Assembly: GCA_027459665.1 (NCBI GenBank)
Contig: DAIDHN010000043.1
Coordinates: 1-34,552, forward strand
Origin: Chthonomonadaceae bacterium
GTDB lineage: Bacteria; Armatimonadota; Chthonomonadetes; Chthonomonadales; Chthonomonadaceae
Direction: 5' to 3'
DNA: 34,552 nt
Positions 9,647 through 15,203 of the stretch are shown piece after piece; within the stretch, counting starts at the first letter, position 1; each line of letters begins with the position of its first letter. The notes under the pieces were generated by a model. That model was not told where the DNA came from, did no database searches, and saw only the letters and a program-made list of their open reading frames with translations. A program made the translations under genes and the position numbers.

Positions 9647-9681
9647 GCATCTTTCTTGCAAAAAGATGCCACAATTTTTTT
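9647..9681 (+). terminator. Rho-independent terminator
   Basis: An 8-bp stem, GCATCTTT (9647-9654) with AAAGATGC (9662-9669), closes on a 7-nt loop and is followed after CACAA by seven T (9675-9681). It lies 220 bp past the GT-C-like gene and about 70 bp before the sigma-like gene. It may end the upstream operon, or act as an attenuator in the sigma gene's leader if that promoter is upstream. Confidence 0.65.
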
Positions 9682-9753
9682 ACAGACATCAAACACTGGC
9701 CACCCTGATGTCTCTTTCAATGGCCATTCCAAATGCAACCGGAGATCAAAAGA

Positions 9754-10467
9754 ATGATGCAGCATCTATCGAGAATGGTCGTAAAACCAAATCTTGGCAA
9801 TAATACTCGTACAGAGGCAACCTTGCAGTGTTTGTACAGATGCCAGCAAGCAAGCGTATCGCAAGTTCTGGGTTGGGCGAAACAACCACGCTCTCACCCA
9901 GACTACCTAGACAACGAGACGCTGGTAACATTATTAAGGTTTTTCCATGCTAACAATGATAACAGTAGTAGAGATGCGCTGATAGATATACTTATTCAGC
10001 GTTTGACACGCTTAATAACTAGAATGATTTTCAGCAAGAATATGCAGCTGACAGCAGAGGATTATATAACCGGCATTATGCTGGATATAATCAAACCAAC
10101 TTGTCTGTTTTACGAGATAAATTTTACTACATCTGTATCTCGTAAAATATCAAAGAACATTAGTAAGGCAAGCAACATACAGTCAAGCGAGTCTAAAAAC
10201 CTTGATGAGTTATCTGATACGCTCGAAGGCCCTTGTGATCAGTATTCAGAAGTGGATGTAACTGATATGATCGCTTTACTCGATGCCCCCGAACGCAGAG
10301 CTATGCAGTTGCACTATGCAGATTATTCCGCTAAGGAGGCAGCAAGCAAGCTTGGCATCACTGACAATGAGTACAACAACAGTCTGCGCAGGGCCAGAAG
10401 AAGGCTGGCAAAACTATACCCAAATCATACCACCAATACCAGAAATATATCAGCAGTTACGGAGTAA
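9754..10467 (+). CDS. Divergent sigma-70-like (ECF-type) factor
   Basis: This 237-aa protein ends in a recognisable sigma region-4-like HTH (about 169-221): a LLDAPERRAMQLHY helix, then SAKEAASKLGIT and a basic RRARRRLAKLY recognition end. An earlier stretch with DALIDILIQRLTRLITRMIF and AEDYITGIMLDII resembles a worn region 2.1-2.2 (core-polymerase binding). It is therefore probably an alternative sigma factor or derived regulator. The start at 9754 is chosen because GGAG lies 9 nt upstream; ATG at 9733 lacks such a site. Two 60-nt blocks counted by hand (10021, 10141) were 35-38% GC against about 60% at 8041, hinting at transfer or relaxed selection. The stop is 3 nt before the next ATG. 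Confidence 0.65.
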   Translation: MMQHLSRMVVKPNLGNNTRTEATLQCLYRCQQASVSQVLGWAKQPRSHPDYLDNETLVTLLRFFHANNDNSSRDALIDILIQRLTRLITRMIFSKNMQLTAEDYITGIMLDIIKPTCLFYEINFTTSVSRKISKNISKASNIQSSESKNLDELSDTLEGPCDQYSEVDVTDMIALLDAPERRAMQLHYADYSAKEAASKLGITDNEYNNSLRRARRRLAKLYPNHTTNTRNISAVTE

Positions 10468-10470
10468 AAC

Positions 10471-11100
10471 ATGAGTACCATACCAAATCAGCAGCAAGAG
10501 CTTGATCGCTGCTTTCAGGAGTGGAGTGAGGACCGGTCTTCAGGCAATCCCTCCACACTCAAAACATGGCTCGAACGCTATCCGCAGTTTACCACGCAGA
10601 TATTGGATTGGCACGCCTACACCACTCTTCAGGAAGCAGTGCAGGAAGAACAGGAGACGCTAGACCACCAGTGGCTTGAAATACAGAAAAGGGTGAAAGT
10701 AAGCATACTGCAGAAGCTGAATGCCCCCATTGCTGCACATTCAAACTCTGAAACAATCACAGACCTGTTCGAGACAATCAAACAAGGGGGTTATACCCCA
10801 CAGGAACTTGCCAGTGAAACAGGTATTACCAAGAAGATTCTCAAGTACCTCAACCAGCGCCTCGTCAAGCCAGATGATGTCAGGTTCCACCGCATGCTGC
10901 GCAGAATTGCCTTCAGCCTCAGAACCTCAGAGTCAGCCCTGCTCGCATATATGCAGGGGCCGCCCAATGTGGCAGTAAATGCATCTTACCGGTCATCTGC
11001 CCGGCCCGCAGCAGCAGAAAAGATAAGCTTCGAATATATGATCCAATCCGACAGTTCCTTAACAGAAGCACAAAAATCCGAATGGTTGAATCTATCATGA
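10471..11100 (+). CDS. HTH protein between sigma-like factor and protease-helicase; candidate repressor, anti-sigma or protease substrate
   Basis: This 209-aa protein matches no family I can name. Three parts are visible. Residues 10-60 form an acidic helical region with WLERYPQFTTQIL, resembling the L-x-x-YP-x-x-x-x-L stretch common in proteins encoded beside bacterial sigma factors. Residues 96-162 include an HTH-like segment (TPQELASETGIT then KKILKYLNQRL). After an Ala/Arg/Ser-rich linker (about 168-182) comes a conserved-looking tail with SLTEAQKSEWLNL. GGAG lies 6 nt before the ATG. It is 3 bp from the sigma gene and 12 bp from the peptidase-helicase gene, so all three should be cotranscribed. 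In ImmA/ImmR and IrrE/DdrO pairs the gene next to the peptidase encodes the HTH protein it cleaves; that role here is inference. Confidence 0.6.
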   Translation: MSTIPNQQQELDRCFQEWSEDRSSGNPSTLKTWLERYPQFTTQILDWHAYTTLQEAVQEEQETLDHQWLEIQKRVKVSILQKLNAPIAAHSNSETITDLFETIKQGGYTPQELASETGITKKILKYLNQRLVKPDDVRFHRMLRRIAFSLRTSESALLAYMQGPPNVAVNASYRSSARPAAAEKISFEYMIQSDSSLTEAQKSEWLNLS

Positions 11101-11112
11101 ACGGAGTTGGCA

Positions 11113-14100
11113 GTGCCAGAAAAACGTAACAGACTGCTGCAGCGCGAAACACTGGAAAAGGCAGACCAGCTCATCTTGCTGTTAAAAGAACAAACGGGGG
11201 TAGAGGCGGTACCATGCGATCATAGCGAACCAATACTCGATGGGGCGATGGCTGTATACGACCGGGACTTACAAGAAATATACTACGACTCATCTCTGCC
11301 AGATCACATAAGAAATTTCACGCTCGCTCATGAGTATGCTCATGTGATGCTGCATCCTGATATACGTCATGACAATTTTACGCAGCTGCAGTATCAGTCT
11401 GCTGTTGTCACGCAAGATAAGCAATCTCTCATCTCCTATAGCCCGCAGGAAAAGAGAGAACAGGAAGCCAACAGCCTGGCTGCCGATTTGCTTTTGCCTC
11501 TGCCTGCCCTGCGCAAAGCATTCCTTCAAGATAAACTCACCCTCACGCAGATAGCAGAGCGTGCAGAGGTCTCTCTGGCATGTGCTGTGTCGCAGCTCAC
11601 AAAACTGCTTGCTACTTTTGAACTAACCGGCAAGGAAGCAGAACCCTCTGAGCAGGATGGAGCTGAAATCAAGCTGGATATGTCGCAGCAGATTGCTGCA
11701 GAGTCGGTATATGGGCCGGTTTTTGTAGACGCAGGGCCAGGAACAGGCAAAACAAGAACGCTCACTGCACGCATTTTTCACCTGATACAAAACGAGCAGG
11801 CGCCGCCCCAAAGCATACTGGCTCTCACGTTTTCTAACAAGGCAGCAGAAGAGATGCGCTCCAGGCTGAAAAAGCTGCTTGGGCCTCAAGGCTCTCTCCC
11901 CTGGATAGGAACATTTCATTCTTTTGCACTGGAAATACTGCGCAAAAGCATTGAATACACCGGCTTCTCAACTACTCCAAGACTGCTGGAACCTCCCGAT
12001 GCTCTTGCACTTCTTACCAGCCATATCTCTTCACTGCCCCTGCACTTGCTGTTCAACCCATCAACCCCTTCTCTGTATCTGCCCGCCATTCTGAACAACA
12101 TATCGCTTGCCAAAAGCAGGCTACTGTATCCCGATGACTACCGTATACAGGCCGGTTTGCTCGCGTCTGAACAAGACCGCCCAAAAGCGTTGGAGACAGC
12201 CGATGTCTATGCACGCTATCAAACCCTGCTGGAACAGGAGAACTGTCTGGATTACGGTGATCTGATTATGAAAACCATTCTTTTATTTGAAAAAAATTCA
12301 GATGTGCTCAAATCTTGGCAGCAAGACTATCCGTACCTGCTGGTTGATGAGTTTCAGGACATTTCGCCCGCCCTCTGGAGAATGCTGCAGCTGATAGCAG
12401 GAAATGGAGAGAAGCTTTGGGCGGTTGGTGACTTCAAACAGTCGATTTATGGTTTTCAGGGCGCTGCCAGCGACATGGCTGAGAAACTTCAGACTGCCTT
12501 TCCACTCACAAAAACCCTCTACCTCAACACCAACTATCGATCTGAAGCAAGCCTGGTAAAAATGCTTAACTCGCTCGCTAGCCACAACTGGAATGCGGTA
12601 TTGAATAACCAGCAGAATCGCAGCATTACATGGCTCACACCAGAAAATCACAGCCATCAACAGCATATTCTATGTCAGCAAATAAGAGAGATGCAAAACA
12701 ACGGATTCCTGTTGTCAGAGCAGGCAGTACTCTGCAGAACCAACTTGGAAGCCGCTGCCCTGGCAGAAGAGCTGGGCAGCAAAGGCATACCTGTGATGCA
12801 TCACGGCATGCTTTTCAAGCGCCAGCAAGTGAAGGATATGCTGGCGCTGCTTACAATCACTTCACAAAGCAAGGGAGGCGCGCTGTACCGTGTCGCACAC
12901 TACAGCCGCTACAATATCCCCCACTCGGATGTGCAAATACTGCTCGATGCAGCACCCGAACCATTTTACAAGCTGCTCACCAGTCAGCCCCCGCCAGACC
13001 TTTCTCCAGAGGGCGCAAAAGGCTGGAAAACACTCTGCGCAGACCTTGCTCCTCTGCTCACCGAATCACCCTGGATGTTTTTGGCAAAATATCTGTTTGA
13101 ACAGCGTACATATCTCAATCAGATATTGGAGTATGAGGCGCCGCAAAGAATTGCAGCGTGCAACGCACTGGTTAAGCTGCTCGATATAGCGCAAGCCAGA
13201 CTGTTTTTCACACAACAAAACGATGATGTCGAACAGGCGGCATCAAACAGAAATGAATATTTGCAGCATATACAGCGCATACAGCTTATGCAGCACGAAA
13301 CTAAAACTTCCCCTAATCTTGAGAGTCATTCCACCAATGCTTTGCATATCCTTACCATTCATCAGGCCAAGGGGCTAGAGTTTCCTGTTGTCTATCTGCC
13401 ATCTCTCACTAACGAACAGTTCAAAAACAGCGGGAGAGGGTTGCTGCAAATACCACTTTTTTTGCAAAACACCGATTCTGATACAGACAATCTATTTTTC
13501 GTAGCTTGTTCACGGGCACAGACTAGGCTGATCCTGCTGTCGCCAAAATTCAGCAAGAATAAATCACTCACCCCCTTCACCATGCTGAGCAGGCTCAATA
13601 TAACGCCCGTGTCGTCGCAGCTGCTACCAGAAACAGAAAAATTGGCAGAAGAGTCGGTCCCCGCCACCAACATTCAAAGCAAAAAGAGACTGGTGATCAC
13701 AGAGCTTGAACAGTGTTCCAGGTGCCCAGCACAGTATTATTATGAAAGAATTCTTGCCACAGAACTGTTCACGCCAAATACGCTTTACAAGCAATTTCAT
13801 TCTTCATTAATCCAGGTGATTCGTGAAATCCATTCAGCTCGTTCAAATGGCGTTCCAATGTCACACCAGCAGGCCATAACTAGCTTTACAATGCGGTTTG
13901 GCGATAACCAGGATGCTGCTTCTGAAGAAAAAAAAGCATTGCTGTCTTATGCAGAAAACCTTCTGCTCAATGGCATAAATTATCCATTCAATGGAAAACT
14001 AGTTAAACTCGACTTTCTGGATGCTTCGTTTATGGAATGCAAAATATCCATACCAATACATCTCGCAGAAGAAAAACCAGATGGAGCTATACAAATCTAT

Positions 14101-14382
14101 CGCTTTCATATGAGACCGCTTAAGCCAAAAGAAGACCACACCGAAAAAAGGCTGCTGTTGCTGCAGCAGGCGGCGAATGCAGTGTACCCAGGCGCCCTGC
14201 CAATTCTAATAGTTTCTCTCTACAATGGCGATACCATGCAGGCTGGGTACAAGCGAGCGCCGCACAACCCGCTTCAGACTCTCTCCGATGCTCTTTCAAA
14301 CATCCAAAGCGGGCACTTCCCAACAAACCCCGATGAACATAATTGCAGAACATGCGAATACCGCATTCTATGCAGCGAATAA
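11113..14382 (+). CDS. ImmA/IrrE metallopeptidase - UvrD-like helicase - Fe-S PD-(D/E)XK-like fusion
   Basis: The protein is 1089 aa with three parts. Residues 25-135 are an ImmA/IrrE-type zinc peptidase: AHEYAHVML gives H73-E74-x-x-H77, and the downstream EQEANSLAADLLLP gives the third ligand near 116-118. Residues 185-830 are an SF1A helicase: AGPGTGKT (207-214), TFSNKAAEEM, GTFHSFAL, LVDEFQD with DEFQD at 412-416, GDFKQSIYGFQGA, LNTNYRS, IHQAKGLEFPVV and FFVACSRAQTRL. Residues 855-1089 resemble the AddB/Cas4 nuclease fold: C868 and C871 (CSRCPAQYYYERI) and a C-terminal C1078-x2-C1081-x5-C1087 that would hold a 4Fe-4S cluster. The usual G-x-x-D-R-x-D and D-Y-K-T catalytic motifs are not visible between them. 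GTG at 11113 has GGAG 6 nt upstream; TTG at 11107 abuts it. The gene ends 5 bp from a convergent gene. Confidence 0.85.
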   Translation: MPEKRNRLLQRETLEKADQLILLLKEQTGVEAVPCDHSEPILDGAMAVYDRDLQEIYYDSSLPDHIRNFTLAHEYAHVMLHPDIRHDNFTQLQYQSAVVTQDKQSLISYSPQEKREQEANSLAADLLLPLPALRKAFLQDKLTLTQIAERAEVSLACAVSQLTKLLATFELTGKEAEPSEQDGAEIKLDMSQQIAAESVYGPVFVDAGPGTGKTRTLTARIFHLIQNEQAPPQSILALTFSNKAAEEMRSRLKKLLGPQGSLPWIGTFHSFALEILRKSIEYTGFSTTPRLLEPPDALALLTSHISSLPLHLLFNPSTPSLYLPAILNNISLAKSRLLYPDDYRIQAGLLASEQDRPKALETADVYARYQTLLEQENCLDYGDLIMKTILLFEKNSDVLKSWQQDYPYLLVDEFQDISPALWRMLQLIAGNGEKLWAVGDFKQSIYGFQGAASDMAEKLQTAFPLTKTLYLNTNYRSEASLVKMLNSLASHNWNAVLNNQQNRSITWLTPENHSHQQHILCQQIREMQNNGFLLSEQAVLCRTNLEAAALAEELGSKGIPVMHHGMLFKRQQVKDMLALLTITSQSKGGALYRVAHYSRYNIPHSDVQILLDAAPEPFYKLLTSQPPPDLSPEGAKGWKTLCADLAPLLTESPWMFLAKYLFEQRTYLNQILEYEAPQRIAACNALVKLLDIAQARLFFTQQNDDVEQAASNRNEYLQHIQRIQLMQHETKTSPNLESHSTNALHILTIHQAKGLEFPVVYLPSLTNEQFKNSGRGLLQIPLFLQNTDSDTDNLFFVACSRAQTRLILLSPKFSKNKSLTPFTMLSRLNITPVSSQLLPETEKLAEESVPATNIQSKKRLVITELEQCSRCPAQYYYERILATELFTPNTLYKQFHSSLIQVIREIHSARSNGVPMSHQQAITSFTMRFGDNQDAASEEKKALLSYAENLLLNGINYPFNGKLVKLDFLDASFMECKISIPIHLAEEKPDGAIQIYRFHMRPLKPKEDHTEKRLLLLQQAANAVYPGALPILIVSLYNGDTMQAGYKRAPHNPLQTLSDALSNIQSGHFPTNPDEHNCRTCEYRILCSE

Positions 14383-14387
14383 CAGGC

Positions 14388-15203
14388 TTACTGAAACACA
14401 CTCCGCAAACTTTCAGCAATGTGCCTCAAGCCAAGCGGCTGATTTACCCGATAACCTTCTACCTCGGCAGTAACAGGCCCTGTATAACCCGCTGCCTGTA
14501 AAGCATCTGAAACGGCCTTCCAGTTCACATCTCCCTGCAAAGGGTTGCAAAAGCCGCTGATATTGCCAATGCCGGTCTTAAAATCTTTCACATGCACCTT
14601 GCAAATGCGTGCGCCCAGTATGCGAATCCACTGCTCAGGGTACCCAAAAGCAAGTACATTGCCTACATCAAAATAAGCGCCAATCCACGGGCTGCCTACT
14701 TCATCCAGCAGGGCGGCAAACTCCAGTGGCGAGAGCAAAAACTTGTTCCATACGTTCTCAAGACCAATGTGTACCTGCTCGGCAGCTGCATCATCTGCAA
14801 GCTCAAGCAGCGCCTCTTTGGTTCTTGCATAGGCCGCGTCATAGCTGATTTCAGTATTCACTACTCCGGGTACCACTAGCACAGTATCTGCACCAAGCCA
14901 CCTAGCCTTCTGAAGCAAATCGCGTACAACCTTCTTCCCCTCAGACCTTACTTCTAAATCGGGAGATGTCATGGGGTATTTCCAACCAAGGCCACAAGAA
15001 AGACTGTACAGATGAATACCAGCTTTGTCCGCTGCATCCCGCACTTCCCCAGCCTCTTTTTCAGACATAGAGCGATGAACTGGCCCACTCTCTTCAAGAT
15101 TCAACTCCAGGCAGTCAAACCCTGCCTCCTGCACTTGCATAAAACATTCCGCAAGAGTCCATTTTCCGGGCAGTGTCCAGCGGTTAATGCCAACTGGGTT
15201 CAT
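14388..15203 (-). CDS. Sugar phosphate isomerase/epimerase (xylose-isomerase-like TIM barrel)
   Basis: This 271-aa protein belongs to the AP-endonuclease-2/xylose-isomerase-like family that interconverts sugars or sugar phosphates on a divalent metal. The four expected metal ligands are visible on successive strands: the Glu of GLENVW, the Asp of AYFDVGN, the His of KVHVKDF and the Glu of TAEVEGY. N-terminal GINRWTLPGKWTL and the FDCLELNLEE strand fit the barrel start. L-ribulose-5-phosphate 3-epimerase- or tagatose-3-epimerase-like activity is possible, but the substrate cannot be read. The start is set by GAGGAGG 8 nt upstream. A TATAAT just upstream implies a very short leader. The 3' end lies 5 bp from the convergent helicase gene with no terminator between. 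Confidence 0.88.
   Translation of the reverse strand: MNPVGINRWTLPGKWTLAECFMQVQEAGFDCLELNLEESGPVHRSMSEKEAGEVRDAADKAGIHLYSLSCGLGWKYPMTSPDLEVRSEGKKVVRDLLQKARWLGADTVLVVPGVVNTEISYDAAYARTKEALLELADDAAAEQVHIGLENVWNKFLLSPLEFAALLDEVGSPWIGAYFDVGNVLAFGYPEQWIRILGARICKVHVKDFKTGIGNISGFCNPLQGDVNWKAVSDALQAAGYTGPVTAEVEGYRVNQPLGLRHIAESLRSVFQ

Follow-up and report, generated by a model that had tools for sequence, protein, structure and literature searches.

IrrE cleaves DdrO and ImmA cleaves ImmR, each substrate being a helix-turn-helix (HTH) repressor encoded next to its peptidase, and in the CapH+CapP pair an XRE repressor and an M78 peptidase activated by single-stranded DNA (ssDNA) control operons for the cyclic oligonucleotide-based antiphage signaling system (CBASS), Bub, and other immune operons. 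We address here the open question of how bacteria hold such dangerous operons in check until damaged or foreign DNA appears. CapP is activated by ssDNA and the CapH repressor binds DNA (PMC13373217), PprI is also activated by ssDNA (PMC10904395), and the first of these papers describes only three controller families of immune operons, namely CapW, CapH+CapP, and CapK+CapS (PMC13373217). The DNA examined was a stretch of 34,552 nucleotides (contig DAIDHN010000043.1 of assembly GCA_027459665.1, positions 1 to 34,552 of the forward strand) from a Chthonomonadaceae bacterium of the phylum Armatimonadota, hereafter called the window, in which three successive genes (the triad) encode a sigma factor, an HTH protein, and a fusion of a peptidase, a helicase, and a pseudo-nuclease. 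On balance, we favor the reading that the triad is a relative of CapH+CapP with a sigma factor of its own, which would be freed when DNA triggers proteolysis of the XRE protein.

The likeness to CapH+CapP is centered on the fusion protein, which can be read from TTG (11107-14382, +, 1091 aa) or from GTG (11113-14382, +, 1089 aa), the latter with GGAG just 5' of the start codon. Its M78 metallopeptidase domain (11257..11589, +; PF06114, E=2.7e-13) scores 50.2 bits against a cut-off of 22, with the HExxH motif at 11329-11343 (+) and a candidate third acidic ligand, E118, at 11458-11460 (+). A preliminary description of this DNA had recognized an ImmA/IrrE-type HExxH peptidase, and the zinc ligands are indeed conserved: H75, E76, H79, and E118 are invariant in 17-21 Armatimonadota homologues (H75/E76/H79 are counted from TTG and correspond to H73/E74 of that description), and the E column is kept in 21 plasmid homologues. 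When the peptidase profile was compared with solved structures, CapP (7t5t) came first (8e-10) and IrrE (3dte) second (1.4e-7). There follows a superfamily 1A (SF1A) helicase core of the UvrD/PcrA type (11674..13554, +; PF00580, E=8e-68; PF13361 (UvrD_C), 3e-35) with Walker A at 11734-11754 (+); the PcrA model aligns to residues 190-816, the core also scores against GajB models, and the full set of SF1A motifs claimed previously shows little or no variation among 21 Armatimonadota homologues. The tail (13723..14379, +; PF12705 (PDDEXK_1), E=2e-6) is an AddB/Cas4-like iron-sulfur (Fe-S) pseudo-nuclease. It had been described as a four-cysteine Fe-S nuclease-like tail, and the cysteines C873, C1080, C1083, and C1089 are invariant or nearly so in the 21 Armatimonadota homologues and also kept on plasmids, but the D/E-x-K catalytic residues of PD-(D/E)XK nucleases are absent in every homologue aligned, with an RRVRTG-like sequence at that place; judged from these residues, the nuclease tail is catalytically dead. 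Homologues align along the full length of the fusion. Among phage homologues, none covered at least 80% of it, and a scan of genome contigs returned a plain helicase only.

The middle gene (10471..11100, +) encodes a 209-aa XRE-type HTH protein, the proposed negative regulator and candidate substrate of the peptidase. A Pfam search gave no significant match for this protein; its predicted model (predicted local distance difference test score 87) has an XRE DNA-binding domain (residues 95-164; 10753..10962, +; by VIA-align) preceded by a helical region and followed by a C-terminal tail, and the long N-terminal extension, outside the XRE domain, is modelled with high confidence. By VIA-align over about 60 residues, the XRE domain resembles the CapH N-terminal domain (NTD; 7t5u, Z 7.2), SinR (7.1), ImmR (7t8i, 6.8), and DdrO (6rnz, 6.4), and Z scores of 6.4-7.2 on a predicted model, taken alone, indicate a common fold only. 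The CapH NTD was also recovered by the sequence profile of the HTH protein (E=0.008). The C-terminal tail, SFxxAIxxxxxMsxEqKxxWL (11026..11097, +), is kept in a 36-sequence alignment of the HTH proteins and in plasmid homologues and, given this conservation, would be a candidate cleavage or recognition segment. The HTH protein of the preliminary description can thus be specified as one with the XRE fold of the known M78 substrates CapH, ImmR, and DdrO together with a conserved tail and, as in CapH+CapP, the XRE protein with its C-terminal segment is encoded beside an M78 peptidase.

The first gene encodes an extracytoplasmic function (ECF)-like sigma factor (Sigma-70/ECF-like; 9754..10467, +). 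Its open reading frame (ORF), as called, spans 9733-10467 (+; 244 aa with start 9733) or, from a better-placed ATG, 9754-10467. A divergent sigma-70-like protein had been proposed for this gene, which agrees with a Pfam match to Sigma70_r4_2 (E=4.9e-8) and with an ECF-like model; region 4 (about residues 171-234) is drawn from Pfam and the region 2-like helices (about residues 60-160) from the model only, which resembles sigma region 4 (Z 10) and complete ECF sigma factors (Z 8-9). Wherever the loci are linked, a sigma orthologue lies 5' of the HTH gene.

The triad is not unique to the window's genome. By using tblastn, full-length homologues of the fusion were hit on plasmids of Rhizobium, Sinorhizobium, Mesorhizobium, Bradyrhizobium, Acinetobacter, Xanthomonas, Robbsia, Leptolyngbya, an Abditibacteriota plasmid, and others, the hosts belonging to Proteobacteria, Cyanobacteria, and Abditibacteriota. 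The plasmid loci are a sample from a ranked list, not a census, and several are close relatives; all 25 of those fetched by homology to the fusion have the three genes in identical order, so that the combination picked out in the window is a cross-phylum module with homologues in unrelated genomes. Profiles built from Armatimonadota proteins recognized the sigma factor in 20 of 21 plasmid loci (E<=9e-4), the HTH protein in 21/21 (E 4e-7 to 7e-39), and the fusion in 21/21 (E<1e-200), the exception for the sigma factor being a truncated 101-aa gene (L177, E=0.28). Also, a ubiquitin-like conjugation operon or its remnant adjoins the triad in 24 of the 25 loci: either Multi_ubiq with ThiF/DUF6791 and DUF6527, or a Bil-type operon with BilC and BilD matches up to 2e-61 and 6e-175. 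This operon is divergent in L166 and L172, only a BilA-like gene is left in L176, and an IS66 element takes its place in L174. With the exception of the Abditibacteriota copy, the plasmid copies fall into a single clade that is for the most part separate from the chromosomal copies of Armatimonadota, although long branches leave the deep placement unsure. Genes for DUF6088 and AbiEii-type proteins were noticed beside the triad, 5' of the sigma gene, in L169, L170, and L200, as in defence islands.

The gaps between the fusion and the adjoining operon on plasmids (70-160 bp) contain a putative promoter, T[AT]CCG-N17-CGA[CT][TC], in 16 of 19 cases, with a spacing of 17 in 14 of these; shuffled gaps gave a mean of 0.2 and a maximum of 2, and the promoter is about 230-fold denser in the gaps than in the rest of the loci. 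Among six further loci, the promoter lies in the gap in L199, L200, L201, and L203, three of these four being close kin of loci in the first set, and not in L202 and L205. An exact promoter site was also seen 5' of BilA in L204, which has the sigma and HTH genes without the fusion, and the single control examined, a Bil-like operon without the triad (L206), gave no promoter match. A second copy of the promoter is found 5' of the sigma gene in several loci and inside the sigma ORF in ten others as well as in L199-L201. This internal copy is located 206-247 bp, mostly about 210 bp, before the HTH start; the amino acid that it encodes varies (A, S, or T) while its DNA core, CGAT, does not. When the two copies of one locus are compared, they differ by 2.1 mismatches of 16 in the -35/-10 letters versus 4.8 between loci, and in the spacer by 7.8 versus 7.9; none of 100,000 permutations gave a within-locus value for the -35/-10 letters as low, relatedness among the loci not being removed from this comparison. 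The -35/-10 letters therefore co-vary and the spacer does not, as predicted for direct control by a co-evolving sigma factor. That a conserved promoter stands before the sigma or HTH gene as well as before the adjoining operon supports a mechanism by release of the sigma factor. In the gap between the fusion and the multi-ubiquitin gene of L173, L169, and L175, the promoter is closely followed by a G+C-rich hairpin-like element with a recurrent AGAGCC.

In Armatimonadota, a TTTCCG element is found 5' of the sigma gene in seven loci (L046, L126, L127, L128, L142, L143, and L147), and a regulon search in genus g4 (TTTCCG...CGTATTGA) returned nothing beyond the two sigma loci and one site that has no suitably oriented gene. 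An element of its own (ATCTAACAGGGSGNGATTA) is conserved 5' of the sigma genes in genus g2, and the remaining matches in a search for that element had no convincing gene behind them.

Among 251 Armatimonadota genomes, the fusion was found in 40, the HTH protein in 40, and both in 36; the fusion is present in Chthonomonas calidirosea T49 (G002), a relative from the same family as the window. The four genomes with only the fusion comprise one that is 64% complete (G016), one with the fusion at a contig start (G012), one with the fusion on a 4.8 kb contig (G160), and one with a divergent copy (G078). In the four with only the HTH protein, the gene directly 3' of the sigma-HTH pair encodes an M78 protein whose helicase is degenerate (motif II lost, Walker A and HExxH kept). 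Such a loss was observed in genus g71 (L134, L135, L136, and L137:1796-3724), where motif II reads VDNYEQ and HExxH and Walker A are kept after sigma-HTH; this suggests, from the motifs, a sensor that may no longer unwind DNA. G108 has two complete triads (L139:6127-8574 and L140:5725-9042), one with a degenerate helicase and nuclease region and an intact peptidase motif, and in G130 (L138:6224-9533) the peptidase and helicase parts are in different overlapping frames, by a frameshift or an assembly error.

The sigma-HTH pair is present but apart from the fusion in six genomes (G003, G005, G007, G015, G042, and G102). The co-occurrence of the three genes nonetheless holds there, the partners missing upstream of the fusion being elsewhere in the same genome, and the association therefore survives the loss of linkage. 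A sigma gene lies beside every HTH locus except the truncated HTH-like copies in genus g2 and the contig-end locus L039, and the two genes are mostly coupled, their ends overlapping or lying a few bases apart. In genus g2 (L044:4767-8855, L043:7229-8579 oriented, and L153), the sigma-HTH pairs are duplicated and a further, truncated HTH-like gene lies 5' of the fusion, and extra sigma paralogues were noticed on the opposite strand just 3' of the fusion in L042 (C. calidirosea; oriented 12827-13531, -), L050 (12842-13453, -), and L051. A search for a conserved fourth gene 3' of the fusion in Armatimonadota gave genes common to close relatives only, except for one gene family in L046 and L053.

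In the window, the gaps of 3 and 12 bp reported between the three genes are reproduced with the starts ATG 9754 and GTG 11113. Also, the convergent gene reported 3' of the unit is real, encoding a TIM-barrel protein (14388..15203, -; PF01261), and is a border rather than a member of the module. A terminator had been placed 5' of the unit, and a terminator-like hairpin is present there (9647..9669, +), but it is a weak pattern match only, in a scan that gave 10 sites against 5.2 expected. The flanking genes, including the convergent TIM-barrel gene, are common to the window, L039, L043, and L044, and the locus is therefore considered to be vertically inherited among these genera. A gene for the RuvC Holliday-junction resolvase (PF02075; 17372-17854, -) lies 3 kb 3' of the unit, beside ABC transporter genes.

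We propose that the sigma factor would direct RNA polymerase to a dedicated ECF-type promoter and that the co-translated XRE protein would silence it, most likely by holding it through the helical N-terminal region and possibly also by binding near the promoter through the HTH. The helicase part with its Fe-S pseudo-nuclease would load on abnormal DNA, which may be single-stranded, broken, or foreign, and this loading would activate the fused M78 peptidase. The peptidase would then cleave the XRE protein, probably near the conserved C-terminal tail, and transcription from the dedicated promoter would be released. The operon so released would, on plasmids, be one for ubiquitin-like conjugation of the Bil or multi-ubiquitin type; the window's lineage has the switch on the chromosome.

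Several observations weigh against this mechanism. In Cupriavidus (L204), the sigma and HTH genes lie 5' of a Bil operon with no fusion beside them, so that the fusion and its presumed substrate are not always neighbors. A conserved peptide, [YF]RxxLxx[AST]I, is encoded by the internal promoter copy, and part of the conservation of this copy therefore comes from constraint at the protein level. Also, the region upstream of the window's own sigma gene has neither the plasmid motif nor the TTTCCG element nor the g2 element, and neither Multi_ubiq nor BilD was found in the window's genome; in relatives, a search for BilD gave weak E1-fold matches only. Finally, we favor sigma over DNA as the partner of the XRE protein because full-length XRE genes are found beside a sigma gene throughout; such pairing and coupling suggest an anti-sigma role, but a CapH-like role on DNA would fit the HTH fold equally well. 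Indeed, the HTH protein might be a DNA-binding promoter repressor that never touches the sigma factor, with the sigma factor as a required activator and the fusion cleaving the repressor; an XRE fold closest to the CapH NTD, SinR, ImmR, and DdrO is in line with this, and CapH+CapP provides the precedent of a DNA-bound repressor with an ssDNA-activated peptidase (PMC13373217). The HTH gene is, however, paired with the sigma gene, usually in translational coupling and also where the fusion lies elsewhere, which suggests a direct partner of sigma, and the protein bears its long, high-confidence helical extension outside the XRE domain. We thus regard a repressor of this kind as less likely, though a serious alternative.

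A constant peptidase, a variable helicase, and a dead nuclease fit a sensor-protease better than a nuclease effector. It is then improbable that the fusion itself acts as a defence or repair effector (a GajB-like helicase-nuclease) with the sigma and HTH proteins regulating only its expression, even though its helicase core scores against GajB models and a copy of the promoter stands 5' of the sigma gene or of the HTH-fusion genes; the nuclease active site is lost in all homologues, the peptidase is intact where the helicase degenerates, and the same promoter stands in front of the adjoining ubiquitin-like operon. We give still less credit, indeed very little, to a generic chromosomal repair helicase with an incidental peptidase domain and with neighbors kept by vertical inheritance only. 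The flanks common to the window, L039, L043, and L044 do attest vertical inheritance there, and the Armatimonadota and plasmid copies are largely separate clades, but the triad is kept across many contexts and phyla, sigma-HTH and the fusion co-occur though unlinked, and a cognate promoter exists. The SOS-like role considered in the preliminary description is weak in the form of a LexA replacement and was rejected, because G000 has LexA, as have 56 of 61 genomes.

With release of the sigma factor by proteolysis as the favored mechanism, the triad resembles CapH+CapP in a peptidase closest to CapP, an XRE domain like the CapH NTD, a position 5' of an immune operon, and a proposed proteolytic release of transcription. 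Instead of two genes with a stand-alone peptidase, however, it has a peptidase joined in one polypeptide with a helicase of the UvrD type and an Fe-S pseudo-nuclease, and it adds a dedicated sigma factor, an ECF-type target promoter, and an extra helical N-terminal region on the HTH protein. IrrE/PprI-DdrO of Deinococcus also has an M78 peptidase, an XRE-type partner, and a plausible trigger in DNA damage; the triad differs in its helicase fusion, sigma factor, and control of an operon, and the GAF-like domain was not found in it. ECF sigma/anti-sigma pairs with regulated proteolysis share the ECF-like sigma factor, the paired partner gene, the autoregulatory promoter (in plasmid members), and a protease encoded alongside, whereas the triad has a soluble XRE partner outside the known anti-sigma families and a cytosolic protease linked to a helicase. 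The same position, 5' of ubiquitin-like and other immune operons, is taken by CapK+CapS and CapW, which respond to DNA damage (PMC13373217), but they consist of a kinase/STAS repressor or a WYL repressor and lack any sigma factor, peptidase, or helicase. An SF1A helicase core is also present in AddAB/RecB-type helicase-nucleases and Gabija GajB, and a four-cysteine Fe-S nuclease fold in AddB; unlike these, the fusion lacks nuclease catalytic residues and has an N-terminal metallopeptidase and a regulatory gene context.

In conclusion, the triad is probably a bacterial switch, widespread and apparently undescribed; no published description was found in a search of the open-licence literature. 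There is about an even chance that it represents a further, fourth controller class, DNA-responsive and acting on adjacent immune pathways in at least four phyla, with a sigma factor freed by a helicase-fused protease, and that in Armatimonadota it serves as a chromosomal second damage response beside LexA. If so, the controller would be mechanistically different, linking proteolysis to sensing by a helicase and giving its output through a private sigma factor with a readable promoter. With this promoter, the regulon can be searched for and the model put to the test, and the triad would provide a likely on-switch for Bil and multi-ubiquitin operons as well as a marker by which more of them can be found.

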